Positions 13,543 to 59,804 of a DNA stretch of 64,000 nucleotides are shown piece after piece. The stretch is from a virus. The stretch's first letter is position 1. Each line of letters opens with the position of its first letter. The position numbers and the translations under genes are program-made. The DNA lies in the IMG/VR virus record IMGVR_UViG_3300027754_000003, positions 34,061 to 98,060 of that record; one strand, written 5' to 3'. The notes beneath the pieces were generated by a model. It ran no database searches and was not told where the DNA came from. It was given only the letters and a program-made list of their open reading frames with translations.

Positions 13543-14409
13543 TTACCTTTGTTCCCGTACAGCCCTTGCAATTCCTTCTTCAAGGGATATCTTTGGGGTG
13601 TAGAAAGAAAGCATTTTCGTAGGGTCGCAAACACGATATTGAACACCTTCTGGTGCTCCAATTATTCTTTCAAACTCAGGAGAGTAACCGCATTCAGTTG
13701 CTACTAAAGTTGCCAAGTCATTAAATGAGGTAACTCGCCCAAGCCCTAAGTTTACTGGACCTTGTATGTCTTGTTGTACGGCTTCTAATGTTGCCGCAAC
13801 AACGTCTTCCATGTGTATAAAATCTCTTACTTGGTTTCCTGAACCCCAAATTTTAAATGGATTTGCTTGCTCTACACCACGTTTAATAAAAGATGGGAAA
13901 GGGTAGTCAAGCGACTGGTCTTCTCCGTATCCAGAAAACGGTCTGAACACATGGACTCTTAGCCCTTCTTTTTCTGCATAACTTGCAAGCATCTCTCCAG
14001 TTAGTTTTGCCCAACCGTATGTGTAGTCAGGAGATTGAATGTTGTTTAAATCAATATCCGACTCAGTTAGGTGGTGCGTAGAACCATAATCTTGTAACTT
14101 TATTGGATAAGCAGCCGAAGAAGAATAATAAATAATCTTTCCTGGTTTTGTTCTTAACGCCCACTGAAACAATTCAGAATCAATTGCGAGGTCTACTGCG
14201 ACAGATAGTGGCTCGCCCTCTATGGTCGCCCTTCCTCCAACAATTGCCGCTAAGTGAACAACGAGGTCAAAGTGTGTTTCATCTGTTGCAAAAAACTTAC
14301 GAGCATCTATTCCGTTTTTTATGTCTACACCTGTGATGTCGTGACCATCAAGCGCTTTGTGGAAATATCCCCCAACAAACCCTGCATCGCCAGTAATAAG
14401 AATTTTCAT
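13543..14409 (-). CDS. NAD-dependent sugar epimerase/dehydratase (extended SDR)
   Basis: 288-residue short-chain dehydrogenase of the sugar-nucleotide type. It shows the N-terminal Rossmann motif GDAGFVGG (7-14), an acidic residue binding NAD ribose in 'TGVDIKNG', the catalytic Ser in 'YYSSSAAYP', and YGWAK (Tyr-x3-Lys) for catalysis. Similar enzymes are UDP-glucose 4-epimerases and GDP-fucose synthases; the exact substrate cannot be read. It overlaps the methyltransferase by four bases, and the block continues with two glycosyltransferase-like genes, so it probably makes a sugar for glycan transfer to DNA, virion or host surface. Confidence 0.85.
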   Translation of the reverse strand: MKILITGDAGFVGGYFHKALDGHDITGVDIKNGIDARKFFATDETHFDLVVHLAAIVGGRATIEGEPLSVAVDLAIDSELFQWALRTKPGKIIYYSSSAAYPIKLQDYGSTHHLTESDIDLNNIQSPDYTYGWAKLTGEMLASYAEKEGLRVHVFRPFSGYGEDQSLDYPFPSFIKRGVEQANPFKIWGSGNQVRDFIHMEDVVAATLEAVQQDIQGPVNLGLGRVTSFNDLATLVATECGYSPEFERIIGAPEGVQYRVCDPTKMLSFYTPKISLEEGIARAVREQR

Positions 14410-14966: not shown

Positions 14967-15673
14967 CTGTGAACCGTCATGTCATGACCACGAGTTTCAA
15001 TAGCACCAACCGATTCTGGGAAATGTCGTGCAATACAGTCTTCACGCACATATGTCGGAATTTTTAGATAGTGGAGTGCATCATGATGGAAGCATGGGTC
15101 GTCTGACATGTTCCTGTCCATATCCCACCTCCATCTAATTCCAGAGAATACATCTCTTGCAATAAAGATTGCTGCGGCTGATGCCATTGCATCCATCACT
15201 GGAAATGGATACTTGTCAATTACTGGACCACGCAAACCATATGTCGTAATGTATGGAGCGCAAAGAGGGTGGTTCATCTCCAACATTCTTGGAAGAATAT
15301 CGTCTGGTGGCATGGTGTCAGCAGCAAGAAACAACATATGTGTGCATGCAGGATTTGACATTGCAAAATCATTTACCAAGTTCTGACCAACCGTGATGTG
15401 ACGAACTCTGTTCTTGGTGCTGACTTCGGTGCGCCCATCATCTAGTGAGTATGTCCAGTATGTTCCACCAATGGCTTCAAGGCGTTCAATAAACGGTTTA
15501 AGAGGTTCTAAACCACGAGCGTCTACCTGAATTGCTGCAAAATATGTAACATCAGTCCAATTCCCGAACTGCTGATACTGCTCTTTAACCTGTTCTGCAT
15601 TTCGCATCCACGAACCCCAATGGTCTTCGTTATCCATCACAAATGCATGCACTGTTGTTCCTACAACTATCAT
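14963..15673 (-). CDS. GT-A-like glycosyltransferase
   Basis: I choose ATG 15673-15671 because it makes an ATGA overlap with the upstream stop; the reading frame stays open further upstream to a TTG at 15706. Protein begins MIVVGTTVHAFV, a Rossmann-like strand, and carries 'MLFLAADTMPPDDIL', a region like the metal-binding acidic motif of GT-A enzymes, with a later 'DDPCFHHDALHYL'. It likely transfers a sugar and acts with the neighbouring epimerase and second glycosyltransferase. Family number cannot be given from sequence by eye. Confidence 0.65.
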   Translation of the reverse strand: MIVVGTTVHAFVMDNEDHWGSWMRNAEQVKEQYQQFGNWTDVTYFAAIQVDARGLEPLKPFIERLEAIGGTYWTYSLDDGRTEVSTKNRVRHITVGQNLVNDFAMSNPACTHMLFLAADTMPPDDILPRMLEMNHPLCAPYITTYGLRGPVIDKYPFPVMDAMASAAAIFIARDVFSGIRWRWDMDRNMSDDPCFHHDALHYLKIPTYVREDCIARHFPESVGAIETRGHDMTVHR

Positions 15674-16752
15674 AACTCCAGTATCCTTTCCATCACTTCG
15701 TTCCAATCAAAGCCACGTTTTTCCATTGAAAATTGTTCCCTAACTACTTCGTAGTTTACCATTGCCTCATCTTTACGCATATTTGGGTCAAGTAGTTCCT
15801 TTAGGTGGTACTTCCATTCATCTGGGCTTTTGGCAATACGACCTGCCCCAGCATCTGCAAGATACTGATATTCAGGTGAATACGAAGCAATAAAAGGAAC
15901 ACCAGCAGCGACATACTCAAGACCTTTGATAAAAGACTTTGCGTGGTTGAACTCAACATTGTTTAGGGGAACTAAACCAATGTCTATAGGTGGAAACAAC
16001 CTAGGGTAATCAAGTATTGGAGCCATCGGCATAGTTGTTGATTTCTGTCGGTAATGCCCAAGTTGTGAATACGCAAAAGGAGCATTTTCTGTGTGACCAG
16101 AATGATGAAAAGTTAAATTATGTTGTTTTAAAAACTTAGGAACGTGTGGATTAAGGCTTTCTAAGTCACTAGACCGCCAAGGTGTCGCACCAACCCAACC
16201 AACAACAGGCAATCGTTTTGCTTTATCCTTACGCATCTTCCAACGATAAATATCTATACCGTTGCGAACTAGAAACACATTCTTTCTCTTCTTTGAGTAG
16301 AAGTCGTACAAGAATGGAGTAGAAGTAATTACTGCATCGGCTTCGTCAATCATATGAAAGTAGTGGTCACGATTATTTTCTGGATTTAATTTTGGGTCTG
16401 TAGCCGCATACGCACGATTAGTTGGTTCAAGACCTTCAAAGAAATCGTCAATATCTACAACAATTTTTTGTCCCATTTTCTTTGCTATTTTTACCATGTC
16501 GGTAATTTCTTTACGCATTACCAACTTGAATACAAGAATTTCCCAACCGTGAACGGCTTTATCGTTAGCAACAATTAGCCCGTAGCCGTGTTCTTCGTGC
16601 CAGCGTGGGAAACCCATACCAACTCGCCAGCCAAACTTCTCTAACTCTTTCATAGGGAGAAAACAGCGATACCACGCACAACCGTTTGGTTGTAGTGGTT
16701 TTGTTCCGTGCGCCCAGTCGTATGTCAAAAAACCAATCGTTTTGTTACCCAT
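15670..16752 (-). CDS. Glycosyltransferase, GT-B (GT4-like)
   Basis: 360-residue protein with two Rossmann halves. N-terminal half: 'IGFLTYDWAHGTKPLQPNGCAWYR' pattern (residues 4-27 described in pieces) and 'IVVDIDDFFEGLEP'. C-terminal half: 'VGWVGATPWRSSDLESL', 'IGLVPLNNVEFNHAKS', then 'KGLEYVAAGVPFIAS', the E-x7-type nucleotide-sugar binding loop region of GT4 enzymes. GAGGT precedes the ATG. First of a four-gene glycan block with ATGA/GTGA overlaps; probably modifies virion or surface glycan. Confidence 0.8.
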   Translation of the reverse strand: MGNKTIGFLTYDWAHGTKPLQPNGCAWYRCFLPMKELEKFGWRVGMGFPRWHEEHGYGLIVANDKAVHGWEILVFKLVMRKEITDMVKIAKKMGQKIVVDIDDFFEGLEPTNRAYAATDPKLNPENNRDHYFHMIDEADAVITSTPFLYDFYSKKRKNVFLVRNGIDIYRWKMRKDKAKRLPVVGWVGATPWRSSDLESLNPHVPKFLKQHNLTFHHSGHTENAPFAYSQLGHYRQKSTTMPMAPILDYPRLFPPIDIGLVPLNNVEFNHAKSFIKGLEYVAAGVPFIASYSPEYQYLADAGAGRIAKSPDEWKYHLKELLDPNMRKDEAMVNYEVVREQFSMEKRGFDWNEVMERILEL

Positions 16753-17014: not shown

Positions 17015-18589
17015 TTATCGTCTACGTCTAGATACGACTGGTGCAGGCAGTATAAATGATACCGTAGTGGCGGCTACCACGACACGGCGTACCCCTACAG
17101 ATACAGTAGAATCCGTAGGAACGTAATTATCAAAGCCACCTTCAAAGACGTTAATTTCTTCTTCAAAGGCTTCTTTTACCTCTGTTGGCGCATTTTGTAC
17201 AGCATCAACGATTGCTTGTGCTTGTTCTTCAGTTAACTCGCCAGTGTCTACTGTGGCGAAAATCTCAGTTGCTTGGTCAGCAGTTATGTTTTCCAGAACG
17301 GCTGCGCTCGTAGCAAGTTGTGTTGCTTGGTCGCTAGAAATGTCTGTAGACAAAATGGTATCCACAACGTCTTGAACTTGCTCTTGGGTAATGTTGTCTG
17401 ACTCCAAGATATTTAAAACCTCATCCAGAACCTCTGCGGTTATCTCAGTAAGGGTATCCAAGTTCTCAACCACGGCATCAACAATCTCTTGAACTTGCTC
17501 TTCTGTAATGTTGTCTGAGTTCAAAGCATCTACAACCTCGGACAAAATCTCTGGCGTAATTTCTGTAATGTTGGTCAGTTCTTCAACTACCGCATCTACT
17601 TCTTCTGCGGTAATTACGTTATCAACGACAGTATCTTCAGGGATAATTTCTTCAGGTGTAGTTGTGGTTGTGGTTTCTTCCTCAGTAGTATCAGGGTATG
17701 GTTCAGTTGTTGTTGTATCTGGCTCAATGGTCGTGGGCTCTGGCTCAGTTGTCGTGGTTGTTTCTTCGGGAAGCATCTCCTCTGGCGTGGGTTCCTCTAC
17801 TACTGTCGTTGTGGTGCCTGTCGGTACTTCTACGACCTCTTCGGGAACGGCAGGGGCGATAGATGTTGTTGTGGTGCTTACTGGCATCTCCGTTGTCGTG
17901 GTACTTGGTTCTGGGACTGTTGTGGAAGTTGAAGAAGTCGTTGTCGTCTGAGGCTCAGTCGTAGATGTTGACGTTTCTAACGGCAGTGTCGTGGTCGTGC
18001 TTGATACTGTTGATGTTGTTTGGGGTACGGAAGAAGAAGTAGATGTTGTTGTAGAACTAGTGGTTGTTGTAGTTGTAGAACTAGTGGTTGTTGATTCAAC
18101 AAGACCATTCCATAAAGACAAATTGCTAATTGTAAGATGCCCAGGTTGGCAGCAAGTATCTATTGAGTACTGGCGGAATGTGAACATATCACCTTCATTA
18201 ACAGGTATAGATTTGGTTCCTGTTGCATTGTTCTGTTGTGTAAGCAAGGTGTACACGCCGTTAACCGCATACTGGGGTGGGTCATACACCCAACCATCAT
18301 TGGTTTGATACGCCCACGTAAAATCAACTGTGTTCACATCGGCAGGGATTGTGGTTTCAATTTTGACCCAATGTGCTCCGCCACAAGGAGAACCTTGTGG
18401 TGCTAGTTGGTTATCAGGACCGTGCAAGGTAATACTGCTACCAGAAACTTCAATGTACCCACCACAGTTTTGAGATTGACTGTATGTCCAGTTTCCAAGA
18501 GCATCTGCCTTAACAGAAGTAACTGGTGCAAACCAAGCCAGAAGCGCTACAGGGAGGTAAAACCAAAATCCTTTGCGTAGTTTAGGCAC
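17015..18589 (-). CDS. Secreted Thr-rich surface-like protein with repeat region and C-terminal anchor
   Basis: 524 residues, GTG start at 18589, with TATAAT five bases upstream. A signal peptide (basic MPKLRKG, hydrophobic FWFYLPVALLAWFAP, then Ala-containing cleavage area near 28-30) is followed by a Cys-containing beta-rich domain (about 30-165), a long Thr/Ser/Val/Glu linker (165-310) and four degenerate helical repeats built on 'ITEEQVQEIVDAVVENL' (310-470). The end has a hydrophobic stretch and RRRR, like a membrane-anchored wall protein without LPXTG. Such proteins are typical of actinobacterial cell surfaces, so host origin is possible; on a phage it might alter the host envelope or be exposed on the virion. 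Confidence 0.75.
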   Translation of the reverse strand: MPKLRKGFWFYLPVALLAWFAPVTSVKADALGNWTYSQSQNCGGYIEVSGSSITLHGPDNQLAPQGSPCGGAHWVKIETTIPADVNTVDFTWAYQTNDGWVYDPPQYAVNGVYTLLTQQNNATGTKSIPVNEGDMFTFRQYSIDTCCQPGHLTISNLSLWNGLVESTTTSSTTTTTTSSTTTSTSSSVPQTTSTVSSTTTTLPLETSTSTTEPQTTTTSSTSTTVPEPSTTTTEMPVSTTTTSIAPAVPEEVVEVPTGTTTTVVEEPTPEEMLPEETTTTTEPEPTTIEPDTTTTEPYPDTTEEETTTTTTPEEIIPEDTVVDNVITAEEVDAVVEELTNITEITPEILSEVVDALNSDNITEEQVQEIVDAVVENLDTLTEITAEVLDEVLNILESDNITQEQVQDVVDTILSTDISSDQATQLATSAAVLENITADQATEIFATVDTGELTEEQAQAIVDAVQNAPTEVKEAFEEEINVFEGGFDNYVPTDSTVSVGVRRVVVAATTVSFILPAPVVSRRRR

Positions 18590-20151: not shown

Positions 20152-20508
20152 TTAACTCGTGATGTTTCCGATAAGGACCCATGTGTTGGCTGCGGTCTTA
20201 ATCAAAGTAGCGGCTGCGTACTGACCGTTTAGTTTATATTTGTTGCTCTCCGCAAAAAGCGTGGCGTTGCCAGCAGAAACTGTCACTACGTTTGCCGCCG
20301 AGCCAGTCTGTAGAATATCTACACGGTCACCAATGCCAAAGTTTGCTTCACTATCGTTAGGTACAGAAATTGTCCACGCACCCGTAATTAATAGAATCTT
20401 TCCCAAGTCATTAAGAGTAAGAACTCTAGTCCCTGTGAAATCCTCAACTTGTGAGTTAAACCCAACCAAGTTCCTACTAGCGGTGTTTTCAGAAAGGCGA
20501 GAAATCAC
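20152..20508 (-). CDS. Tail appendage-like protein, 118 aa (GTG start)
   Basis: GTG start overlaps the upstream stop as GTGA. Short beta-rich protein with 'RVLTLNDLGKILLITGAWTISVPNDSEANFGIGDRV' spread over residues 29-65, followed by 'AGNATLFAESNKYKLNGQYAAATLI'. This style of segment (LNDLGK.L..., W..I.P) is common in phage capsid-decoration and fibre modules. It precedes the 361-aa appendage gene by three bases. Probably a virion component; exact place unknown. Confidence 0.6.
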   Translation of the reverse strand: MISRLSENTASRNLVGFNSQVEDFTGTRVLTLNDLGKILLITGAWTISVPNDSEANFGIGDRVDILQTGSAANVVTVSAGNATLFAESNKYKLNGQYAAATLIKTAANTWVLIGNITS

Positions 20509-20834
20509 GAAATTTCTGCCCCGAACAACGAGAACGAAAGGTTGGCGCTTGACGCATAGACAGTCACTACGTCAGTAGTTGCCAATGTCAAACCAACACT
20601 CAAAGTGACGGTGTCTTTTGCCAAGATGTTGGCATCATAAATCATGTAGTGCTGGTTAGCAATAGTTGCACCAACAGGGCGTACAGCCACACGATAGGTG
20701 GCTGCCGTTGTTCCACGGTTACACACGGACAGCGTTGAAGCCACTACTGATTTCCCAGCACCTACGGTGAGAAGGTCGGTATTGGTAGTCGCTGATGGTG
20801 CTGATTGGGCAAGAACTTTATATGCTTGGGCCAC
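20505..20834 (-). CDS. Tail appendage-like protein, 109 aa (GTG start)
   Basis: GTG start with AAGGAG seven bases upstream. Beta-rich: 'YKVLAQSAPSATTNTDLLTVGAGKSVVAS', then 'CNRGTTAATYRVAVRPVG' and 'DANILAKDTVTLSVGLTL' in the second half. The same layout (short beta domain with 'VCN.GTTA.TY.VAV.P') appears in the 120-aa protein at 29529-29891, so the two look like paralogues. Likely a virion surface or tail component. It follows the 94-aa membrane gene by 46 bases. Confidence 0.6.
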   Translation of the reverse strand: MAQAYKVLAQSAPSATTNTDLLTVGAGKSVVASTLSVCNRGTTAATYRVAVRPVGATIANQHYMIYDANILAKDTVTLSVGLTLATTDVVTVYASSANLSFSLFGAEIS

Positions 20835-21171: not shown

Positions 21172-21177
21172 ATCCTA
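21172..21177 (-). promoter_or_regulatory. Leaderless-type -10 element
   Basis: TAGGAT (TAnnnT) on the minus strand, six bases (AAAGCC) before the ATG at 21165. The AGGAT inside it could alternatively act as a weak ribosome binding site, so the reading is less certain than at TATAAT sites. Confidence 0.4.
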
Positions 21178-21579
21178 CTTGCTCATTGACAATCCTGCTC
21201 TAGGGGTCAGGGAAATAACCTCATGGTTTACTGTTGCTGGGACATAGATAAGGTCCCCAGGTTCTAGCGTGTAATCACCATAATCCGTAATCCATTTTGT
21301 TGAACCCTGGCATTGCCAAAAATAAACATCTTCCGTATCGTTATGTTTACCGAATCCGTGGTTTCCTTTTGCCGTAGACACGTAAACATGAGCCACAGTT
21401 AAGCCTAGGGTTTCCAAAACCGCTTCTGCGGACTTCATGGTGTGTCCATCTACGGTTGTCGTAAAGCACCCCCCAATGCGGCGAAACGAACCACCAGATT
21501 CTTTTGACGCTTCAATATTTTCGTTTATCTCATCCCATGTTGGGGTAGGAAAATAAAACCCTTTTGTAAAGATCACCAT
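21175..21579 (-). CDS. Cupin-like protein
   Basis: 134 residues. A cupin fold is suggested by 'GKHNDTEDVYFWQCQGSTKWITDY' (residues about 76-99), and a second motif 'LEPGDLIYVPATVNHEVISL' with the PG-D-x-x-x-x-P-x-x-x-x-H arrangement (about 104-124). His residues at 'KHND' and 'NHE' could bind a metal. It likely belongs with the neighbouring oxygenase cluster, perhaps as a dioxygenase or isomerase. Start ATG has the divergent palindromic promoter at 21586-21601. Confidence 0.7.
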   Translation of the reverse strand: MVIFTKGFYFPTPTWDEINENIEASKESGGSFRRIGGCFTTTVDGHTMKSAEAVLETLGLTVAHVYVSTAKGNHGFGKHNDTEDVYFWQCQGSTKWITDYGDYTLEPGDLIYVPATVNHEVISLTPRAGLSMSK

Positions 21580-21585
21580 TTTCCC

Positions 21586-21601
21586 ATACTAGCGCTAGTA
21601 T
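21586..21601. promoter_or_regulatory. 16-bp palindromic bidirectional promoter, ATACTAGCGCTAGTAT
   Basis: A perfect palindrome fills the 28-base gap between divergent genes. Each half provides TAGTAT exactly six bases before an ATG: to the left 21579 (cupin) and to the right 21608 (YkgJ-like). Both transcripts would be leaderless. The symmetry also gives a natural dimeric operator, so one regulator could control both genes. Confidence 0.7.
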
Positions 21602-21607
21602 CTGGTC

Positions 21608-22099
21608 ATGGACAAAAAAGAACCATTTCATGTAGTTGTGCGAGATAGAAGTTGCGGAACATGCACAAAATGTTGTGAGGGTTACCTAGCAGGGGAAATC
21701 CAGGGGATACCTTTCTACGAAGGAAAACCCTGTCATTTTGTGGACATTGGTTCTGGATGTTCTATTTATGAAGACAGACCAGAAGAACCTTGTAAGGCAT
21801 TCAAGTGCTTATGGTTATCTGACCCAAACTACCCAGAATGGTTGAAACCAAATATTAGTAATGTCATGTTTGTTGACAGGTACATTGGTCCACATCCTTA
21901 TGTTTTTGCTAAAGAGGCTGGCGGGAAAATGGATGCCAGGACATTATCTTGGGCAATAAACTACATGTCATTCAATAAGTTTAATTTTGCTTGGCAATAT
22001 GACGGTGGGTGGAACGCAATAGGTACTGACGAGTTTGTTAAAGCCTATTTTGAAAATGAGCGATATTATGCCCCAAACGGAAAAGTTGAGAATCGCTAG
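21608..22099 (+). CDS. YkgJ-like metal-cluster binding protein
   Basis: 163 residues, on the opposite strand from its neighbours. The N-terminus has the Cys pattern of the YkgJ family: 'SCGTCTKCCEGYL' then 'KPCHFV', 'GCSIYEDRPEEPCKAFKC' (residues about 11-60). Such proteins are thought to bind Zn or an Fe-S cluster. The rest is a charged C-terminal domain ending NGKVENR. It overlaps the convergent 2OG gene by four bases (22096-22099). It could deliver iron or electrons to the adjacent oxygenases, an inference from context. Confidence 0.75.
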   Translation: MDKKEPFHVVVRDRSCGTCTKCCEGYLAGEIQGIPFYEGKPCHFVDIGSGCSIYEDRPEEPCKAFKCLWLSDPNYPEWLKPNISNVMFVDRYIGPHPYVFAKEAGGKMDARTLSWAINYMSFNKFNFAWQYDGGWNAIGTDEFVKAYFENERYYAPNGKVENR

Positions 22100-22653
22100 A
22101 TTGTTAGTTCAAGGAAATCAAAATTAAAAGCAATTACTGTCTTTCTTTTCTTTGAGTTATTCACTGGGGAGCGATGTATCAGGGATGCTGGAAATAGCAC
22201 AACGTCACCTTCGGATACGTTGAATCTTCTCACGATTGACGTATCAAACGGTTCAACAAACTCCGTCACACATTCCTGGTCTGGGAGTTCTAAATAATAA
22301 ATACCAGAAAAGTTTGAACCAGCGTGATTGTGCCAATGGTGGTAGTCGCCACTCTCATATTGTTGGAACCAAACACCACGCATTTCAAGTGTTTTATGCA
22401 GTATTGAATCTGGGAGACTAGCCATGAAACCATTAATGTATTCACAAAACAGAGATGACCACGGTCTTTCCTCTTCCAGCAATGAGAAATCATATCTAGA
22501 GATTCGTTCTAAGTTATTAGATGGGTCTTTCTTTGATTCAAAGTCAGCAGACTCTATGAGGCTTAACATAACTGGTTTTAGAGAGTCATGGTTTGGCATT
22601 TTTCTAACCATGTATGAACCGTGATATTGGTGTTTTGTTACAAAATCAGACAT
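22096..22653 (-). CDS. Putative 2-oxoglutarate/Fe(II) oxygenase
   Basis: 185-residue protein whose second half has the oxygenase signature: 'YHHWHNHAGSNFSGIYYLELP' (first metal His region) and 'GDVVLFPASLIHRSPVN' with the distal His, then a basic pair before 'VIAFNFDF'. It fits the pattern of small phage/proteobacterial 2OG-Fe(II) proteins where the double-stranded beta helix is short. Such enzymes hydroxylate amino acids, lipids or nucleobases. The substrate is not deducible; it is one of four such genes around the halogenase gene. Confidence 0.75.
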   Translation of the reverse strand: MSDFVTKHQYHGSYMVRKMPNHDSLKPVMLSLIESADFESKKDPSNNLERISRYDFSLLEEERPWSSLFCEYINGFMASLPDSILHKTLEMRGVWFQQYESGDYHHWHNHAGSNFSGIYYLELPDQECVTEFVEPFDTSIVRRFNVSEGDVVLFPASLIHRSPVNNSKKRKTVIAFNFDFLELTI

Positions 22654-22663
22654 TGTTCCTCTT

Positions 22664-23308
22664 TTACACGTATTTTTGGTAGGTATTCATTGACTTGTGT
22701 AAGTACTTTTTTATCATTTTATTTTCACGTTTTTTGTAAGCGGTATGGTATTCCTCTGTACGAAGTGGGCTTACCCCTGTATTATTAAAAAACCAATGAT
22801 CTGGTTCAGCATAGTGTGCAATAAATACTTCTACATAATCGTTATAGTTTTCTTTAGGAAACTCTGGCCTCCAGTGTAACTGCTTTACACCATTATACAA
22901 AAGAGCATCCCTGTCCCCCCATGTATATTCTTTTCCGTTTACGTACATAGGCCATGAGACAGTTGATTTGAGTTGTATATCAATTGTGTATGTGCAGGCA
23001 TTGTCGTCTAGATGTGGTGGCAAATTTGGAACGCCGTACTGTGGAGAGTACCGAAACCATTTAAAATAAGATGGTAATGCTGTACTAGAAAAGTTATCAA
23101 CAACAATTTTATTTAATGTTTCGTATATTTCAAAAGGTAAAGATTCTCCATCAACAAATGTTGCTCTTGGGTCTGCACTTTTTCTTCCAACTGCGTTATT
23201 AAAATGGTTCTTTTTTTGTGGATGTGTGTTGATGTACTCAAGTATCACGCTCTGTTGCTGTTCAGAGATGACGTTTTTTAAAACTTTTGGTTTTTTTACC
23301 CTTTTCAT
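22664..23308 (-). CDS. Putative 2OG/Fe(II) oxygenase
   Basis: I use ATG 23308-23306, which makes an ATGA overlap with the upstream stop; an in-frame GTG lies at 23329. The protein has 'FKWFRYSPQYGVPNLPPHLDDNACTYTI' in two pieces, with an HxD (HLD), then 'WPMYVNGKEYTWGDRDALLYNG' and 'QLHWRPEF' with the distal His. The basic C-terminus (KKRENKMIKKYL) is unusual. It lies between two other oxygenase-like genes. Product and substrate unknown. Confidence 0.65.
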   Translation of the reverse strand: MKRVKKPKVLKNVISEQQQSVILEYINTHPQKKNHFNNAVGRKSADPRATFVDGESLPFEIYETLNKIVVDNFSSTALPSYFKWFRYSPQYGVPNLPPHLDDNACTYTIDIQLKSTVSWPMYVNGKEYTWGDRDALLYNGVKQLHWRPEFPKENYNDYVEVFIAHYAEPDHWFFNNTGVSPLRTEEYHTAYKKRENKMIKKYLHKSMNTYQKYV

Positions 23309-23985
23309 ATAACTAATGAAGGTTTGCACTCAAACTGGATTGGTTTATGCGGTGGTTCGTGGCAATCAATGAATGTACTAATCATCCATTTATCTCCAGA
23401 AATTGGAACTCTACCGACATGTGGGTGTGTCCAATACGCTGGAAATATTGATATGTCCCCTACAGATGCTGGAATAACAATATTGTGTGATGGGAATCCA
23501 GTCCCACCACCTACATCAACTGTGTTTAGGTACATGACAACACCAAGAACACGCAAATTAATAGGGTTTGAGGACCAAGGGTCACCATCAGTATGTGACC
23601 TGTAAAACCCATCTCTTGGGGAGTACCTTTGGAGTCTATAACCAGTGTCTTTTAAATCAACATGAAACAACTCAACGTATTCCTGAACGTACAATGCTAA
23701 AGCAGAATAAAGACCAACAGTTACTGCATCTTCACATTTAGTAAATACTGAACTGTTAATACCAAAAGAATCAACAACTGACTTTGAAAAAGAAAAGTCC
23801 ATAGTGTTTTTTATTTTTGGGTTAAGCCCACCAAGTGTTGGCCCTGGTGAAAAAAGAGTTTCAAAGTTTTCAAGGCACTTAGTGACTAACTCAGAACATA
23901 CGTTTTCTGGTATTGCATTTTTAACTACAGCAATAGCAGAAGATTTTCCAGCAGGGAATTCTATCCTCATTTGATTATCCGTCAT
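23305..23985 (-). CDS. Prolyl 4-hydroxylase-like 2OG/Fe(II) oxygenase
   Basis: 226 residues. The conserved core is 'RYSPRDGFYRSHTDGD' (HxD metal ligands), 'VVMYLNTVDVGGGTGFP', then 'GDISIFPAYWTHPHVG' (distal His) and 'GDKWMISTFI', where a Lys would bind 2-oxoglutarate in place of Arg. This is the P4Hc-type layout used to hydroxylate proline, lysine or asparagine in proteins. Starts at ATG overlapping the previous stop; overlaps the next oxygenase by four bases. Confidence 0.8.
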   Translation of the reverse strand: MTDNQMRIEFPAGKSSAIAVVKNAIPENVCSELVTKCLENFETLFSPGPTLGGLNPKIKNTMDFSFSKSVVDSFGINSSVFTKCEDAVTVGLYSALALYVQEYVELFHVDLKDTGYRLQRYSPRDGFYRSHTDGDPWSSNPINLRVLGVVMYLNTVDVGGGTGFPSHNIVIPASVGDISIFPAYWTHPHVGRVPISGDKWMISTFIDCHEPPHKPIQFECKPSLVI

Positions 23986-24398
23986 GGTATGAATACTAGC
24001 GCCGAATCAACGAGATTTCCACCCTTCAAAATTTGGATTAAAAACTCTCCAGATTCTTCTGGAGTAAACGAACCTATTAGAGAATGTTTGTCCCGTAAAA
24101 ATGAGTAATAAACACATTCTTTATCCCCGTTAGTCACGACTAACTTGCAGTTTTCTACGGTTTCAAAATCGTTCAAATAATCAAACAATATTGGAAATGC
24201 GTGGTTAACTTCATCGGGTATATGCATCATAAACCCGTTGTTAACGGGAACTACTACTACACATGGTTTTGACCTATCAAACTCAATAGATTTTGTTTTT
24301 TCCGAATCACCTATTTGGATTGGAAGGCTCCACTCCTTGGCAAGTTCCTCTGCTTCTTCTAGTTGTTCTTCAGATTGGCAATAAACAATCCTATCCAT
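23982..24398 (-). CDS. Hypothetical protein, 138 aa, halogenase cluster
   Basis: Acidic protein with alternating hydrophobic strands (IVYCQSEEQLEEAEELAKE, CVVVVPVNNGFMMHI, CKLVVTNGDKECVYY) and no family recognised. It overlaps the next gene (upstream, DUF6065-like) by eight bases and the P4H-like gene by four, so it is an integral cluster member. It may bind substrate or bridge partners; nothing in its sequence decides this. Confidence 0.6.
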   Translation of the reverse strand: MDRIVYCQSEEQLEEAEELAKEWSLPIQIGDSEKTKSIEFDRSKPCVVVVPVNNGFMMHIPDEVNHAFPILFDYLNDFETVENCKLVVTNGDKECVYYSFLRDKHSLIGSFTPEESGEFLIQILKGGNLVDSALVFIP

Positions 24399-25260
24399 TT
24401 TTGTTTTCCTTACGCAGTTTTGTATCTATCTTATTTTGTTCTGCTTTGTACTTTCCATGAAAATCTTCGTTTCTCCACGCACCATCAAATCCAAGATTAT
24501 CAAGGAGCGCATACATGGATGAATCTCCTCGTTTTAATGTTGATTTCTTTGTAGTGTCCTCACGTTTGAATGGGATTACGTGGTACAGAGGGGTTCCTTC
24601 TTTAATTACAAACTCGTTATCAACTTTTATATTCAAAACTATGTTTGCATGATGGTAATAGTCAGTATTGACAACTCCAGCCATAACTTGGTAATTTTGG
24701 TTTGGTTCCCATTGAGGACCTATAAGCAATGATGAGTAGCCTGGTGCTGTCTTAATAAGCCAAGGATTTAGCAATTTTACATAATTAGATGTTTTTAATT
24801 TTCTATCGTTTGCCATTGGACACTCACCAGTTTGGGCAAAATTAAACTGATTTTGAGCAACACCCTCGTCTGAAAAGTACTGTTTTTTTTCTTCTTCTGT
24901 AAGTACGCCCGTTTCCAATACAGTACTACTGGAGTGGTTGTATTTAGTATCCCATGTAGCATTTAACTTGCTTATAGGTGGTCGTATGGATATTTCTGCC
25001 CACATAGGTATTGTATACCCAGAACGCAAAAAATCTGATAGACCAGAACACGTACGAAGACTTGCATCTCCCTTTTGTAGTTTTTCATACCACTCTGCAA
25101 ATTTTGTATTGCTTGCATAAGCGGAAATTGATGGATGATAAAAATGATTTGTTGGTGGTACCATCAAAACTTCATTTGGTTTAATTTCTGGTATTTGCTC
25201 CCAGGTATCTGCTTTTACTAGCCCATCTTCATTATTTTTGATTTTTGAAAATAGACGCAT
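24391..25260 (-). CDS. DUF6065-like protein
   Basis: 289 residues. The C-terminal half has 'NPWLIKTAPGYSSLLIGP', 'VNTDYYHHANIVLNI' and 'EGTPLYHVIPFKRE', a pattern I associate with DUF6065 proteins, which are found beside tryptophan-halogenase and oxygenase genes in marine bacteria and phages. Catalytic residues are unknown. It overlaps the halogenase gene by 29 bases at its N-terminus (the ends lie in different frames) and the 138-aa gene by eight. Family call is tentative. Confidence 0.6.
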   Translation of the reverse strand: MRLFSKIKNNEDGLVKADTWEQIPEIKPNEVLMVPPTNHFYHPSISAYASNTKFAEWYEKLQKGDASLRTCSGLSDFLRSGYTIPMWAEISIRPPISKLNATWDTKYNHSSSTVLETGVLTEEEKKQYFSDEGVAQNQFNFAQTGECPMANDRKLKTSNYVKLLNPWLIKTAPGYSSLLIGPQWEPNQNYQVMAGVVNTDYYHHANIVLNIKVDNEFVIKEGTPLYHVIPFKREDTTKKSTLKRGDSSMYALLDNLGFDGAWRNEDFHGKYKAEQNKIDTKLRKENKNG

Positions 25261-26710
25261 GTGGAACTCTCTTTCGTTGTAGTGTCATTGACCTTAGTGA
25301 CGTATAGTGTTGAATTATTGGTTCTCTTGATTGATAAGCATCTAGACCCATAGATGCTACTTCTTTTGGTATTAACCCCTGCCCTTGTGCAACGTGCCAC
25401 AAATGAGGAGTAGCAAATAACTCATAACCAAACCTAGGAATATCAGTGTCTAATGGTACTCGTTCTTTCCACAATTCAAGAAGAAAACTCAGTGTATCTG
25501 GAATTTTTGCGTTTTTCTGAGCAACCCACATAGCCGAATCTTCTCTATCTGATATGTAGTGCAATGAAATCATAGTCAGGATGTTATCCATTAAAGAATC
25601 AAAGGTTTTTCTGTAATGTTCAACCTGGGCTACTGACGAAGGTCCAAATGTTGGCAAAATTGCACAAATCATTCTTGCCTGTTGAATTGAGGTTGAAATT
25701 GATGTTGCCTCAAGTGGTTCTACAAAGGAGGAAGCAAGACCAACGGAAGCACAGTTGAACTCAAAGGAGTGTTTAAAATACCCAGATTTGTATCTGATTA
25801 TTCTTGCTGGGGTTATTTCCCTACCATATGCTTCAGAGAGTTCTTTAACGGCCTGATCGTCTGAGCAAAAATCAGATGCAAAGATATAACCATTTCCTCT
25901 GCGTTCTTGAGTTGGTATCTCAAACACCCAGCCATTTGCTAACGCTCGTGCTCTTGTGTATGGTCGGATTTCCCCAGACTCGTCTGGTGGTGTTGGAAAT
26001 ACTGCAGCAGAGTCAGTGGGCAAATAGTCTCTGTACGAAATAAAAGTATCTTCTTTAACTAGTTGTGACATCAACATACGTTTAAACCCAGTTGCATCAA
26101 TATAGAAATCTGCGGCAATGTTTAAACCAGTGTCTGTTGAAATTGATGTAATAAACCCGTTTTCTGGGTTTCTTTCAATTTTTTCAACAATTCCTTCATG
26201 CAACTCAACCCCTCTATCCTGAGCAAGTCGTTTGAGGTAATTGTTTAGTTTGAAAGTGTCAAAATGAAATTGATTTGTTGTGTTGTGTTGTTGATGTGGG
26301 TCTTCCGTTTGGATAACCTCGTTATCCCATAGATGATCTGAGTTTACGGCTGCTGTGAGAGGCCACCCGTTTTCAAGTGCAAATGCATAGTTTGAGTAAT
26401 AGTCGTTTGGCCCAAAGCCACCCTCTGAAACGCTATGAAAATAGTCTGGTGTATGATTTGTCCAGTTTTCAAACCTGATTCCGTATTTGTGCGTTGCAGC
26501 GCATTCACGAACCATTTCATTAACATCTATACCGTGTGGGGTAGTAAAGAACTGTTTCCAGTGCTCTGTTGAGCCTTCCCCAACGCCAATTATTCCTATC
26601 TTTGCTGAAGATACAACTGTTAATTTGTAGTGTGGAAAAAAACCACGGGCCATTATCGCAGTAAGTAATCCAGCAGTACCAGAACCAACTATACAAACAT
26701 GTTTTTGCAT
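25232..26710 (-). CDS. Flavin-dependent tryptophan halogenase homologue
   Basis: 492 residues, normal for this family. FAD-binding GxGxxG is GSGTAG (9-14). 'IGIIGVGEGST' (about 38-48) and the conserved 'THKYGIRFENW' with Lys75 match the halogenase Lys that carries the hypohalous species. 'YIDATGFKRML' (about 203-213) and 'SSFVEPLEATS' (Glu near 334-339) are also conserved. The WxWxIP motif appears as WVFEIP (261-266), so the second Trp is Phe. Such enzymes chlorinate or brominate indoles; cyanophages carry relatives with broad or iodinating activity. The flanking oxygenase genes suggest a shared pathway; the substrate is unknown. Confidence 0.88.
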   Translation of the reverse strand: MQKHVCIVGSGTAGLLTAIMARGFFPHYKLTVVSSAKIGIIGVGEGSTEHWKQFFTTPHGIDVNEMVRECAATHKYGIRFENWTNHTPDYFHSVSEGGFGPNDYYSNYAFALENGWPLTAAVNSDHLWDNEVIQTEDPHQQHNTTNQFHFDTFKLNNYLKRLAQDRGVELHEGIVEKIERNPENGFITSISTDTGLNIAADFYIDATGFKRMLMSQLVKEDTFISYRDYLPTDSAAVFPTPPDESGEIRPYTRARALANGWVFEIPTQERRGNGYIFASDFCSDDQAVKELSEAYGREITPARIIRYKSGYFKHSFEFNCASVGLASSFVEPLEATSISTSIQQARMICAILPTFGPSSVAQVEHYRKTFDSLMDNILTMISLHYISDREDSAMWVAQKNAKIPDTLSFLLELWKERVPLDTDIPRFGYELFATPHLWHVAQGQGLIPKEVASMGLDAYQSREPIIQHYTSLRSMTLQRKRVPHASIFKNQK

Positions 26711-26713
26711 GTA

Positions 26714-27319
26714 CTACCTAAACCAAGAAACAATTGAATACTTTACTTCCTCGCTGTTTTCTCCAACAGGGTTAGCGTAATGGAAATACGGAAAGTTACT
26801 TGGGAACAAAACTACAGAACCAGCCTTTGGTTTTACTGTCACATTAAGCAACGGGAATGTAAGTTCTCCACCATCACTAACGTCATTTACAAATCCAACA
26901 AGACTAAATACTCTCCCGTTATCTTGGTGGTGGTCAACATGGCCCCGATATTCAGCGCCAGAACCATACTTAAGAATTCTGTAACCTTCGTTTGTTGATA
27001 CTTCAATATTGAATGAATTTCTGTAATGCCAAATAACTTTTTCTAATTGTTCAGTAATATCTTGTGCGGATTTAGCCAAAGGTATTACTCTTTCAACTTG
27101 GATATTGTCAACTGGAGACATTAATGGAGAAAGTTCACAACCTTGTGAAGAACGGTACGAACTTGTTGTTGCGGTGCTTTCTCCGCCAGTTTGCGACCTA
27201 AACCATTGGACATATCCCCAATCTTGTTTACATTCTCCTTCTAAAAGTTCTATAAAGTTTGATGGTTTAAAAGCATTCTCATACACGTATATACATGTAC
27301 CAAGTTCAATTGGTTTCAT
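26714..27319 (-). CDS. 2OG/Fe(II) oxygenase-like protein
   Basis: 201 residues. A complete small oxygenase core: 'GYRILKYGSGAEYRGHVDHHQ' (HxD metal ligands in GHVD), 'VGFVNDVSDGGELTFP', 'GSVVLFPSNFPYFHYANP' (distal His), and 'EVKYSIVSWF' with Lys for 2OG binding. It resembles P4H-type and phage-specific 2OG enzymes. It is three bases from the halogenase gene and just after a His-rich tail fibre gene, so it could act on the fibre or on the same substrate as the halogenase. Confidence 0.78.
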   Translation of the reverse strand: MKPIELGTCIYVYENAFKPSNFIELLEGECKQDWGYVQWFRSQTGGESTATTSSYRSSQGCELSPLMSPVDNIQVERVIPLAKSAQDITEQLEKVIWHYRNSFNIEVSTNEGYRILKYGSGAEYRGHVDHHQDNGRVFSLVGFVNDVSDGGELTFPLLNVTVKPKAGSVVLFPSNFPYFHYANPVGENSEEVKYSIVSWFR

Positions 27320-27334: not shown

Positions 27335-28795
27335 TTAGGAATCTATGTCTTTGATTATAGTCACGTTTGAGTTGGGTATGTGCGTAGAAATGTTTCTTGT
27401 GAAAACAACAAGGGTTCCAGGGGCTCCAGGGTTTCCACTAGCGCCAGGGTTTCCAGGGTTTCCAGAGTTTGCTGTCCCACCAGTACCACCTGGGTAGGTA
27501 GGGTTGTGATTTGCTACGGTTCCTGGGGTATGACCAGTGACGTTGTGGGTATTGGCGTTATGACCACTGACATTGTGGGTATTAGCGTTATGATTAGCGA
27601 CATCGTGGTGATTAGCGTTATGACCACTGACGTGGAAGTGGTTTGCATGGTGTCCATCTTGTGCAGCAACATGTTTTGTGTGTGAGTGACCTTTATGCGT
27701 TGGGTGACCAGCGTTATGCGCTGCGTTTCCTGCAGTATGGGCTGCTGGTCTATGGTGCGCTGGGTTATGGGTTTTTGGGGGAGTTGCACGAATAACGGTT
27801 GAAGCGTTATGAAGCGCTCCAAGGAAATGACTAGGGTTATGGTATGGGTTTCCAGGAACTGTATGTGGGTGTTGGTGGTTTGGGTTTGAATATGGATGAT
27901 TTGAAGCAGCAATATGCCACGCAATTGCTCCGCCTTCTGCATGATTTGCATAAGCCCCACTACCAGAATCATGGTGGTTTGCAGTAGCCCCACTACCAGA
28001 ATCTGAATGGTTTGCAGTAGCCCCAGTACCAGCATCCGTATGGTTTGCAGTCGCTGGGTTTAAGTTTGCAGTACCAGCAACTGTTGTTCCAGCATTTCCT
28101 GCTACTCCAGCATTTCCAGAAGTGCCAGAAGTACCCGATGCTCCAGTAGTTCCCTCGCTCACAAAAGTTCCACTCCCAGTAATGTTGTTTGCAACAATAA
28201 CCACTGAACCACCTGCTTGACCAAACGACCCACCAGTTCCCTTTAATCCCTTTGTCCCAGCAGTTCCAGCGTTTCCAGCAGTTGCGCCGCCTGCTGGTGA
28301 AGGAGCCGCTCCGCCTGGATTTGCAGTTCCGTCTGCTCCGTCTGCTCCGTCAGAACCAGCAGTTCCTTTTGTTCCAGGATACCAACGCTTAACTTGCAAC
28401 CCAGTTTGACGTACTCCATAAATAAGTGAGTCGTAATCATCAATAGAAGCAATAGATGCAATGCTTCCGTCAATAGCATCGGCAGAATTGTATCCAGCAG
28501 TCCCGTCATCACGAGTCATCACGCTTCCAGCAAGAACAGACGTTGTCTGCGAGGTTCCGCTTGGCATACCTACTGTGCCACTGTTAGCAAGCGTTCCTTT
28601 TACAAATATCTTAAATCCGTTTGTGAATAACGTAATTCCGCTATTTACAGTCAGGTTGTTGTAGTACATATCTCTAGAAATAGTTTGATTAGTAGATATG
28701 ACAACATTACCGTCAGCACCGTTTCCAAATAATTTTAACGCTCTGTCGTTTTGAGCAGTCTTGTTTGAAGGTTTGTTGAGTCTAATTTTTTTCAT
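27335..28795 (-). CDS. Long His-rich, Gly-rich tail fibre
   Basis: 486 residues. N-terminal part (about 30-130) resembles the start of the next protein (paralogous fibre head: 'MYYNNLTVNSGITLFTNGFKIFVKG'). A middle Gly/Ala/Thr segment (145-225) is collagen-like without strict periodicity. Residues about 255-435 are extremely His/Asn rich, built on short units such as NANTHNVSGH and 'NHHDSGSGA'. The end has 'LVVFTRN'. His-rich fibre regions can bind metal ions, as in T4 fibre tips. It is likely a host-recognising fibre and a possible target of nearby oxygenases. Confidence 0.65.
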   Translation of the reverse strand: MKKIRLNKPSNKTAQNDRALKLFGNGADGNVVISTNQTISRDMYYNNLTVNSGITLFTNGFKIFVKGTLANSGTVGMPSGTSQTTSVLAGSVMTRDDGTAGYNSADAIDGSIASIASIDDYDSLIYGVRQTGLQVKRWYPGTKGTAGSDGADGADGTANPGGAAPSPAGGATAGNAGTAGTKGLKGTGGSFGQAGGSVVIVANNITGSGTFVSEGTTGASGTSGTSGNAGVAGNAGTTVAGTANLNPATANHTDAGTGATANHSDSGSGATANHHDSGSGAYANHAEGGAIAWHIAASNHPYSNPNHQHPHTVPGNPYHNPSHFLGALHNASTVIRATPPKTHNPAHHRPAAHTAGNAAHNAGHPTHKGHSHTKHVAAQDGHHANHFHVSGHNANHHDVANHNANTHNVSGHNANTHNVTGHTPGTVANHNPTYPGGTGGTANSGNPGNPGASGNPGAPGTLVVFTRNISTHIPNSNVTIIKDIDS

Positions 28796-29529
28796 TATCC
28801 AACCTGCATGTAATAGACAGTTCCACTAGCACAGCCAGTACCCCCAGTTACGTCTGTTGATACTGCTGCATTTAAACTTGAATCAGAAGAGATAATTAAG
28901 ACTACACCACCGCCACCGCCACCTGCTCCTGGAGTTCCAGGGGCAGAAATGTAAGCAGTGCCTGAAGTTACTGTAATGTACCTAGCAACGACCATAACAA
29001 CGCCACCACCTGCGCCAGCAGTTCCACCAGCGCCACCACGAAGAAATGTCGGGGTTGGACTAGCGGCAGATACCGCCCATCCTTTAACTGCTTGGAGTGG
29101 TTGTTGGTAATAGATAGAACTACCAAGGGCTGCTGTTGGGGCAGTGGCGGTTTGTGAGGCACTAGCACCACCAAGACTGTGAGTAACTGATGCCGATGTA
29201 CCCCCACCTTGTCCTAACGTGCCAGCAGTAGAATAACCAGTCGTATAACCGATTCTTGCTCCAGGACCAAGTGTTAGGACATTACGAACAAACAACCTAT
29301 AGCCGTTTGTTGACACGGTAATACCACCAGCAATAGTTAGGTTTGTATAAAACTTGTCCTCAGTCAAAGAAGTGTTAGCGGAAATTGTTGCATCACCGTC
29401 TGAGCCAGAACTGTAAATAGGGTCAGGAACATTAATGTAATCAACTACATCAGTCCATGTACTTGAGATTGTAGATGTACTTTCCGCAGTTGATATTGTC
29501 GTTCCATTTAAGCGAACGAACGATGCCAT
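28795..29529 (-). CDS. Tail fibre-like protein, 244 aa
   Basis: Shares an N-terminal layout with the His-rich fibre: 'DKFYTNLTIAGGITVSTNGYRLFVR' (about 57-81). Further on there are Gly-rich strands and the segment 'GTPGAGGGGGGVVLIISSDSS'. GAGGAG precedes the ATG and the two fibre genes touch end to start (28795). Most likely a virion fibre component; the chain may assemble as a trimer. No host receptor can be inferred. Confidence 0.65.
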   Translation of the reverse strand: MASFVRLNGTTISTAESTSTISSTWTDVVDYINVPDPIYSSGSDGDATISANTSLTEDKFYTNLTIAGGITVSTNGYRLFVRNVLTLGPGARIGYTTGYSTAGTLGQGGGTSASVTHSLGGASASQTATAPTAALGSSIYYQQPLQAVKGWAVSAASPTPTFLRGGAGGTAGAGGGVVMVVARYITVTSGTAYISAPGTPGAGGGGGGVVLIISSDSSLNAAVSTDVTGGTGCASGTVYYMQVG

Positions 29530-29891
29530 TACGACTCCTCAATACCAGTAAGGATAATATTTACTGCTGAGTTAGTACTTGCCGAACCAATGATTTGGTC
29601 GCTATTTGTAGCGTTTGCAGTGCTTCCGTTGTTGTTTAACACCAAAGATGTTGAAATGGTTACAGTTTCGTTTGCTGCTAAAGAAAGAACATTTAAGAAG
29701 TTTTGTGACGAAGCCTGAGCCACGTTGAGGGGTTTTAGCACCAAAGTAACTGTTACAGCACTACCAGTGGTGTTACATAGCAAGATTTGCTTGATGATTG
29801 TGGTAGTACTGATTGGCGTGGTGTACAGCACCGTTGATGTTGTCGTAGTCAACTGGGTTGGCCCAGAAAGACGTTTTTGGGTGACTGGCAT
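29529..29891 (-). CDS. Small tail protein, 120 aa
   Basis: Beta-rich Thr/Asn/Val protein ('LLCNTTGSAVTVTLVLKPLN', 'NFLNVLSLAANETVTIS'), resembling the 109-aa protein at 20505-20834. GGAGG precedes its ATG, and it overlaps the stop of the 839-residue fibre as TAATG. Probably a collar, baseplate or decoration component. Function inferred from paralogue and position only. Confidence 0.6.
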   Translation of the reverse strand: MPVTQKRLSGPTQLTTTTSTVLYTTPISTTTIIKQILLCNTTGSAVTVTLVLKPLNVAQASSQNFLNVLSLAANETVTISTSLVLNNNGSTANATNSDQIIGSASTNSAVNIILTGIEES

Positions 29892-58342: not shown

Positions 58343-58371
58343 AGCGTACAACCTATGAATGGTCTTGTCAA
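58343..58371 (-). promoter_or_regulatory. Sigma-70-like promoter, leftward
   Basis: Minus strand TTGACA (58371-58366), exactly 17 bases, then TACGCT (58348-58343). The same hexamers and spacing as at 7178-7206. It overlaps the stop codon of the upstream 478-aa gene and drives the 79-aa gene and those after it. Confidence 0.7.
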
Positions 58372-59804
58372 GCCTCATCCGACAGGTCAATGACATCCTG
58401 ATACATACGGTCAGTCTGCTGGGCATTCAATCCACCACCAGATAGTTGTCTTGTGGACTCACCGACTGCCTGACCAAAGATGCGACTAAGCACCCCACTA
58501 CTGCCTCTTGCTTCTACTTCAAGGCGCATGACATCACGAGTATCCGATATGTCTTTGAACTTCTCTACCAAGTTGAATAGACGTTCTACTTCTCCCGATA
58601 GTGCTGGGTCAAGTCCTTGACCTTCTAGTTCTTCAGCGAAGCGAGCAAACAGAACACGACTCACTTGCATCTCCAGAAGAGCCCTCATTGCACCCTGCAA
58701 CTGGTCTTTGGTTTTGATTTCTACAGGCAACTTGAATCCACATTCTGCATTCTCCTTGAATGCAGGACATCTGGCACTCAAATAGCAACTATTACATTGT
58801 CTAAAGAGACTGCTTTGATACTGAATTACAGGTACTTTTTCAATACCTATTTCTTCAGATTCTCCTTCTCCTGCAAGGTCTTTAGCCAGTTGTGGGGTGT
58901 ACTGCTCAATACCCATAACTGGTAGCAATACTTTGTCATCCTCGTGCCTCTTCTCAGAGCCCCTAATAGTAATACTTGTACCCCCTGAAGCCACATTTGG
59001 CGAAGTAGGCAAATTACTCAAATAGTTACTATTATCCCCATTATCCGATAGACCTATTTCTTCTTCATCAGAGTCTGTTGCAGGGTCATAGACCCCTAAA
59101 ACACCTTGCTCCCATGCTTGCCAAGATTTGATTGCTAACTTTGCAACCTCAGCATTATCATCCTGAACTATCTGTTCATAGTCAATGCCTAAGCGAATAA
59201 TGTCGGCTCGGTGTTTCTTTCGGGCAGAATCTTTCTGCTGGGCTGGGTATCGGCGTAGACCGTGACCATCCCACACTTGGGTTTCGCCATAACGCACAGC
59301 CGATGTCCATGAACCAACAAGAACAGAATCCCAAGGAAGGGACTCAATAACCTCTGGCTTTGACGACAAGCCAATAAGTTTGGCATCCCATCTTTGGACT
59401 AGGTTTCGGATTCTGGAGATGGTCTTACCATTTACAGCCTTATCGCTAATCGCAGCCCGACCATAGCGTTGGCACAAATAGGCAAGCCTTTCCATATCAT
59501 CTGGGTCGTTCCATACGGGAATGTAACGCTCGTTTAGCCACGCACCGTCATAATCAGGTCTACCTATGATTGCTGTCAGGCTCTCGTAATGCTGGCGAAT
59601 AAAATCGTCATAACGAGTTACATCCTCATCGTTCTCAGAAGTGTAGAGAATGACCTCATTTCCCCCGAACATTACAGACAAATCAAGTTCCTTTTTCTTA
59701 GGAACAGCCAAGTGGGTGAGGTTTACAGCAAAGCGAGTTACGCCAGCATTCTGAAGGAGCGACCTATGTGATGACTTTTCGGCATTAGCAAAGTAAATCT
59801 TCAT
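58368..59804 (-). CDS. Hypothetical protein with TIM-barrel-like N-half and Cys cluster, 478 aa
   Basis: N-terminal half has repeating beta-alpha features (MKIYFANAEKSSHRSLLQ..., RWDAKLIGLSSKPEVIESL, SVLVGSWTSAVRYGETQVWDG). The end of this half 'RRYPAQQKDSARKKHRADI' is basic. A Cys cluster 'CNSCYLSARCPAFKENAECG' near residue 335-355 predicts a zinc or Fe-S site. The pattern recalls phage proteins related to tRNA-guanine transglycosylase-like (DpdA-type) enzymes, but catalytic residues were not verified. Terminal region is unstructured. Family uncertain. Confidence 0.55.
   Translation of the reverse strand: MKIYFANAEKSSHRSLLQNAGVTRFAVNLTHLAVPKKKELDLSVMFGGNEVILYTSENDEDVTRYDDFIRQHYESLTAIIGRPDYDGAWLNERYIPVWNDPDDMERLAYLCQRYGRAAISDKAVNGKTISRIRNLVQRWDAKLIGLSSKPEVIESLPWDSVLVGSWTSAVRYGETQVWDGHGLRRYPAQQKDSARKKHRADIIRLGIDYEQIVQDDNAEVAKLAIKSWQAWEQGVLGVYDPATDSDEEEIGLSDNGDNSNYLSNLPTSPNVASGGTSITIRGSEKRHEDDKVLLPVMGIEQYTPQLAKDLAGEGESEEIGIEKVPVIQYQSSLFRQCNSCYLSARCPAFKENAECGFKLPVEIKTKDQLQGAMRALLEMQVSRVLFARFAEELEGQGLDPALSGEVERLFNLVEKFKDISDTRDVMRLEVEARGSSGVLSRIFGQAVGESTRQLSGGGLNAQQTDRMYQDVIDLSDEA

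Follow-up and report, generated by a model that had tools for sequence, protein, structure and literature searches.

A conserved phage cassette of a putative flavin-dependent halogenase and oxygenase-like proteins associated with tail-fibre genes

Why should a phage carry a halogenase and a series of hydroxylase-like enzymes directly beside the gene for a tail fibre? The question is raised by positions 21175–27319 of the window, the 64-kb (64,000-nucleotide) stretch of viral DNA analysed here, which corresponds to bases 34061–98060 of the 98,060-base IMG/VR record IMGVR_UViG_3300027754_000003. A preliminary description of this DNA had recognised a flavin-dependent halogenase (FDH) homologue amid oxygenase-like genes, and had named the adjacent His-rich fibre, a signalling molecule or the host surface as possible targets. 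Comparative data favour the first of these, and from them we infer that the cassette modifies the phage's own fibre. We consider this rather probable. Histidine halogenation as the reaction is held more tentatively, as a possibility that falls short of an even chance. For a signalling-molecule or host-surface target, no positive evidence was seen here.

The halogenase and its fibre neighbour

The FDH gene (25232–26710, minus strand) encodes a member of the Trp_halogenase family (PF04820; 325 bits against a curated cut-off of 21, E = 7.8e-97), and phmmer searches with it return halogenases in the PDB. In a 28-sequence alignment, the GxGxxG motif for flavin adenine dinucleotide (FAD), Lys75, GWxxxIP and EPLE are strictly or almost strictly conserved; the second Trp of the WxWxIP-type motif is Phe in the window copy. 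A complete FDH homologue with the FAD motif, Lys75 and the EPLE region had been described previously, and this description is upheld. With these motifs intact, the protein is a putative halogenase.

The proposed substrate is FIB2 (27335–28795, minus strand; PHROG tail fiber, 2e-4). This tail-fibre protein has a conserved N-terminal domain, a Gly-rich part, and His/Asn-rich repeats in its C-terminal half, including low-complexity units such as HNPGG and NHHHHT. His makes up 8% and Tyr 2% of the whole protein. Its gene is preceded by that of FIB1 (28795–29529, minus strand), a Gly-rich fibre protein of 244 residues that is conserved with FIB2 in a separate alignment. In most cassette loci, the fibre genes are immediately preceded by that of a small protein, s20 (29529–29891, minus strand). 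A paralogue of s20 at 20505–20834, downstream of the cassette, suggests a duplicated fibre-linked unit.

Scanning viral contigs with the FDH yielded 68 loci. After open reading frame calling and clustering, the FDH cluster comprised 72 loci, the fibre cluster 63 and the DUF6065-like cluster 64. Cassette and fibre are kept together in 63 of the 72 loci, through rearrangement and strand change. The frequent order is s20, FIB1, FIB2, a 2-oxoglutarate (2OG) oxygenase, FDH, the DUF6065-like protein, the small protein C138 and two further 2OG oxygenases. One group is reordered, with C138, two 2OG oxygenases and FDH at one end and the DUF6065-like protein, s20, FIB1 and FIB2 at the other, and in L056–L059 the fibres are on the opposite strand with the parts still together. 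JmjC_2 and YkgJ-like proteins are optional members (7 and 11 loci, respectively). Overall, the cassette is present in ∼80 non-redundant viral groups, sometimes in rearranged order. Because the gene order recurs in dozens of phages, the cassette is not a product of chance, and the dedicated pathway suggested earlier is supported as a conserved module. The enzyme genes are linked to the fibre gene across lineages, with shared ancestry limiting the independence of these cases. No isolate with the FIB2 N-domain was found by tblastn.

Fibre repeats in the presence and absence of the halogenase

To limit circularity, FIB2 and FIB1 domains were used as queries in place of the enzyme. In the first two fibre scans, 37 groups came up through the fibre alone; 28 of them have an FDH, and the His-rich groups without one are contig ends. 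L155, L227, L260 and L191/L253/L364, which are His-rich and show no FDH, break off within 1.6 kb downstream and carry no information on this point. L131/L235, which are His-poor with no FDH seen, were not counted as FDH losses, since only 0.5 kb lies upstream and their relatives keep the FDH upstream of the fibre. After the third scan, among all groups with at least 5 kb on both sides, an FDH is present in 58 of 59 that are His-rich, the exception (L293) having weak His content, and is absent from all three that are His-poor. Relatives of L151 and L293, recovered in the last scan, keep the DUF6065-like and 2OG genes, have no FDH, and carry fibres with Tyr-rich repeats (YATNYPV, NPTTYPVAGG, NNYSYGYSYPGNN).

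When all scans are taken together, His exceeds Tyr in 79 of 79 groups with an FDH (medians 9.4% and 2.7%) and in 0 of 29 cassette groups without one (medians 3.0% His and 8.7% Tyr). Four groups without the cassette have little His and little Tyr. A Fisher test gives p = 6e-27, a value not used as evidence given shared ancestry and few independent events.

What accompanies the Tyr-rich fibres differs from locus to locus. The gene after the fibres in L151 (12888–14105 of that locus) encodes an N-acetylglucosamine (GlcNAc)-type glycosyltransferase (PF11397, 1.2e-29), a family that includes the Skp1 hydroxyproline GlcNAc transferase. By analogy, the FDH-less loci possibly hold a hydroxylase-plus-glycosylation version of the cassette. 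A PF11397 transferase also occurs behind Tyr-rich fibres in FDH-less L345, L347, L352, L354 and L363. Separately, in ∼24 FDH-less groups a protein of ∼290 residues with a weak match to a pullulanase-associated domain (8e-5) is encoded directly after the Tyr-rich fibres, as in L293 (12263–13156) and L157 (11932–12807).

A second fibre type in cyanophages and the weighing of alternatives

The association is also seen with an unrelated fibre. Cultured cyanophages have another Gly-rich fibre (PF21722 Gly_rich_2, 2e-10) before the FDH; this fibre has His clusters near its end and gives no match to the FIB2 profile. With the P-TIM40 fibre as query, tblastn returned 12 records, which belong to seven phages (P-TIM40, S-WAM1, S-CREM1, S-SZBM1, P-RSM6, syn9 and Syn10), and an FDH lies within 3 kb of the fibre in all seven. 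The collection searched holds at least 443 T4-like cyanophage records, as recognised by a portal match and the first word of the name, and the FDH was matched in 70 of its records of any kind; most of those T4-like cyanophage records therefore lack an FDH. Behind the fibres of the T4-like phage syn9 are two FDHs, a DUF6065-like protein, a small protein, an Oxy_5 protein, an unassigned protein, a weak Oxy_5 match, a further Oxy_5 protein, JmjC_2 and Oxy_3. Judged by sequence, this is the same toolkit as that of the window.

The second FDH of Syn10 is VirX1 itself (PDB 6QGM), whose active site is large, open and accessible and which has been studied on small molecules only (PMC8407142). No physiological substrate of VirX1 was found in the literature searched. 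Syn10 and the window share the FDH family and a module of a Gly-rich His-containing fibre, FDH, DUF6065-like protein, Oxy_5, JmjC_2 and Oxy_3. They differ in that the window FDH belongs to a diverged subfamily (phmmer E = 7e-38) and the Syn10 fibre to a different fold family from FIB2. Halogenase genes are common in cyanophages, and VirX1 has been studied as a biocatalyst. A fibre target would also suggest a purpose for this orphan viral enzyme. The fibre would be a testable VirX1 substrate in isolates already cultured (Syn10, syn9, P-TIM40 and S-WAM1).

In the mechanism that we favour, the two-protein tail fibre FIB1/FIB2 would be made together with the enzymes, FIB2 bearing the repeat domain of His, Asn, Pro and Gly. 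The FDH would halogenate aromatic side chains of these repeats, most likely histidine, using oxygen, halide and FADH2 from a host flavin reductase; no flavin reductase of family PF01613 was found in the record. The 2OG/Fe(II) oxygenases would hydroxylate nearby Asn, Pro, His or Asp residues, and presenting or chaperoning the fibre may fall to the DUF6065-like protein and C138. The fibre tip would thereby differ in its chemistry, and any benefit to the phage would come from changed receptor binding, metal binding or stability. Two known enzymes speak for a protein substrate: VirX1, through its large open active site, and QhpG, an FDH-like flavoprotein that modifies a residue within a protein (PMC7876137). 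In its general form, the proposal is that in several phage lineages an FDH halogenates His and 2OG enzymes hydroxylate neighbouring residues on the low-complexity domain of the phage's own fibre, and that the cassette is swappable, with the FDH accompanying His-rich repeats and a GlcNAc-type transferase or other proteins accompanying Tyr-rich ones. This full version is offered as a conjecture that we do not expect to hold in every part. If true, halogenation or hydroxylation of the fibre would give a phage receptor-binding chemistry that the twenty amino acids do not offer, and FDHs able to act on long peptides would have practical value.

Several observations weigh against this proposal. The literature searched contains no histidine halogenase. 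The FDHs of HTVC008M, S-RIM44 and S-SSM6a lie in other contexts with no such fibre neighbour, and in L034, L040 and L041 the FDH stands beside Gly-rich fibres with only ∼2% His. In the fibre tree, FDH-less cassettes fall mainly in one clade (tree figures 96/98), so the switch between His and Tyr may have been a single event. The same clustering favours the explanation that cassette and fibre, part of a tail locus that varies, travel together as a single recombination module without acting on each other, and fibre loci recombine often. However, the association spans fibre N-domains of 26–60% identity, different gene orders and strands, and the unrelated cyanophage fibre, and we regard such hitch-hiking as very unlikely.

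A published proposal also points away from the fibre. Clusters of a halogenase with 2OG and cupin-like enzymes have been noted in jumbo cyanophages and interpreted as pathways for a metabolite or capsule, among them that of S-SSM6a (Iyer et al. 2021, PMC7824862). By extension, the product of the window cassette would be a metabolite or host-surface glycan that its enzymes make or decorate with halogen and hydroxyl groups, and the fibre would be adjacent by chance or through a shared role at the host surface. Most characterised FDHs do use free or carrier-bound small molecules. The S-SSM6a cluster, however, includes a carbamoyltransferase and sugar genes and lacks an adjacent fibre gene in the part seen, whereas the marks of such clusters (carbamoyltransferase, sugar or amino-acid genes) are absent among the window cassette genes, as are a carrier protein and a transporter. 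In addition, the fibre residue type tracks the FDH. A small-molecule or sugar pathway thus appears unlikely. The earlier suggestion of an undescribed modification system is accordingly narrowed: the clustering of halogenases with 2OG and cupin enzymes was known, whereas the fibre link and the VirX1 link were not found in the literature searched. That literature held nothing combining tail fibre, halogenase and glycine-rich, nothing on DUF6065, and no halogenated virion.

A further alternative accepts the fibre as substrate and changes the chemistry. The FDH homologue might hydroxylate or otherwise oxidise the fibre, or act on its few Tyr or Trp residues while the His repeats bind metal. QhpG is an FDH-like monooxygenase whose target is an aromatic residue of a protein, and HxH motifs in fibres have been proposed to bind iron (PMC11705849). 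The window FDH resembles QhpG in fold, with weak sequence similarity (E = 7e-7, far below the cut-off). It differs in that QhpG is bacterial, hydroxylates Trp for a cofactor and is structurally closest to CmlS-type FDHs (PMC7876137). Against this alternative, which we consider quite unlikely, stand the invariance of Lys75 and the remaining FDH motifs and the presence of VirX1, a genuine halogenase, in the same gene context. Metal binding by the His repeats might also accompany the halogenation that we favour. For the hydroxylation step, a partial precedent is the prolyl 4-hydroxylase of PBCV-1, a virus-encoded 2OG hydroxylase that acts on viral-protein peptides with collagen-like or repetitive targets. 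This system, cited in PMC9301287, differs from that of the window in belonging to a eukaryotic virus and in involving no halogenase.

Oxygenases and accessory genes

Four 2OG/Fe(II) oxygenases had been listed, with the Fe-binding triad as the feature to check. Three of them have the canonical HxD...H motif. The P4H-like (prolyl 4-hydroxylase-like) protein of the 2OG-FeII_Oxy_3 family next to FIB2 (26714–27319, minus strand; Pfam 2e-13) has H127xD129..H180..K193, kept in 80 homologues. Its relative at 23305–23985 (minus strand; phrog_61, 2.5e-23) has H131xD133..H189..K199, kept in 56, and the protein at 22664–23329 (minus strand) has H106xD108..H152, kept in 15. The double-stranded beta-helix fold is backed by a model for the last of these only, an AlphaFold prediction (pLDDT 88) that matches AlkB, ALKBH and PHD2-type 2OG dioxygenases; the other two were judged by their motifs. 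The fourth protein (22096–22653, minus strand) is an exception. Despite a 2OG-FeII_Oxy_5 match (Pfam 1.2e-13), the HxD/E...H triad is absent, and an H108xH110..H160 variant is found in its place.

The PHROG labels 'ferrochelatase' for 22664–23329 and 'DNA endonuclease V' for another oxygenase family were dropped, the former after motif and fold checks and the latter after a motif check. More generally, the PHROG or record labels 'ferrochelatase', 'DNA endonuclease V' and 'minor coat protein' sit on families that look like 2OG oxygenases, in the window (22664–23329) and in L079, L076 and L040.

The cupin noted earlier is confirmed as a JmjC_2 protein (21175–21579, minus strand; Pfam E = 1.2e-11) with H79xD81..H119, possibly a hydroxylase and a fifth Fe enzyme. 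The YkgJ-like CxxCxxCC protein (21608–22099, plus strand) is likewise present, with eight Cys invariant in 11 homologues, though its Pfam match is below the cut-off. It is the one convergent gene in a cassette that otherwise lies on the minus strand. Down to 22096, minus-strand genes overlap by at most 29 bases or are separated by at most 15, which fits one transcription unit. The co-transcription proposed previously for all genes except YkgJ is thus compatible with the layout to that point, but the YkgJ-like gene sets the cupin apart.

The DUF6065-like gene (24391–25260, minus strand) is present as described (phrog_7084, 8e-30), although its score against PF19541 (18.9 bits) is below the gathering cut-off of 26.6. 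Profile and fold searches both return dUTPases. These enzymes typically have a GxxDxxY-type catalytic motif, and most are trimeric. Because GVVNTDY stands at the position of that motif in the window copy, an enzymatic role is doubtful. Its context and the trimeric state of dUTPases lead us to guess at a fibre partner. In haloarchaeal HF2-type viruses, a DUF6065-like gene (L080, 7848–8729) lies ∼1 kb from the gene of an adhesin that is matched at its start by the FIB2 profile (1.8e-8, for an assumed database of 1000), and the DUF6065-like family may partner fibres of this kind more widely. Unlike the window, these viruses show neither FDH nor oxygenases in the part seen, and the adhesin is not His-rich. 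C138 (23982–24398, minus strand), a small conserved protein of 138 residues present in 45 loci, was missing from the earlier gene list; no solved relative was found.

Elsewhere, genes for a portal protein, terminase, tail sheath, baseplate wedge, DNA polymerase and DnaB-like helicase mark the record as a myovirus, a tailed phage of the contractile type. The FDH has no close relative in bacterial genomes (best ∼34% identity) and so provides no prophage or host link. A 524-residue protein with long Thr/Ser-rich (TTTSTT) low-complexity tracts (17015–18589), perhaps another surface protein, is kept downstream of the cassette in 16 loci. Further PHROGs labels in the window are nucleotide-sugar epimerase-like (13543–14409), glycosyltransferase-like (15670–16752) and queuine tRNA-ribosyltransferase-like (58368–59804).

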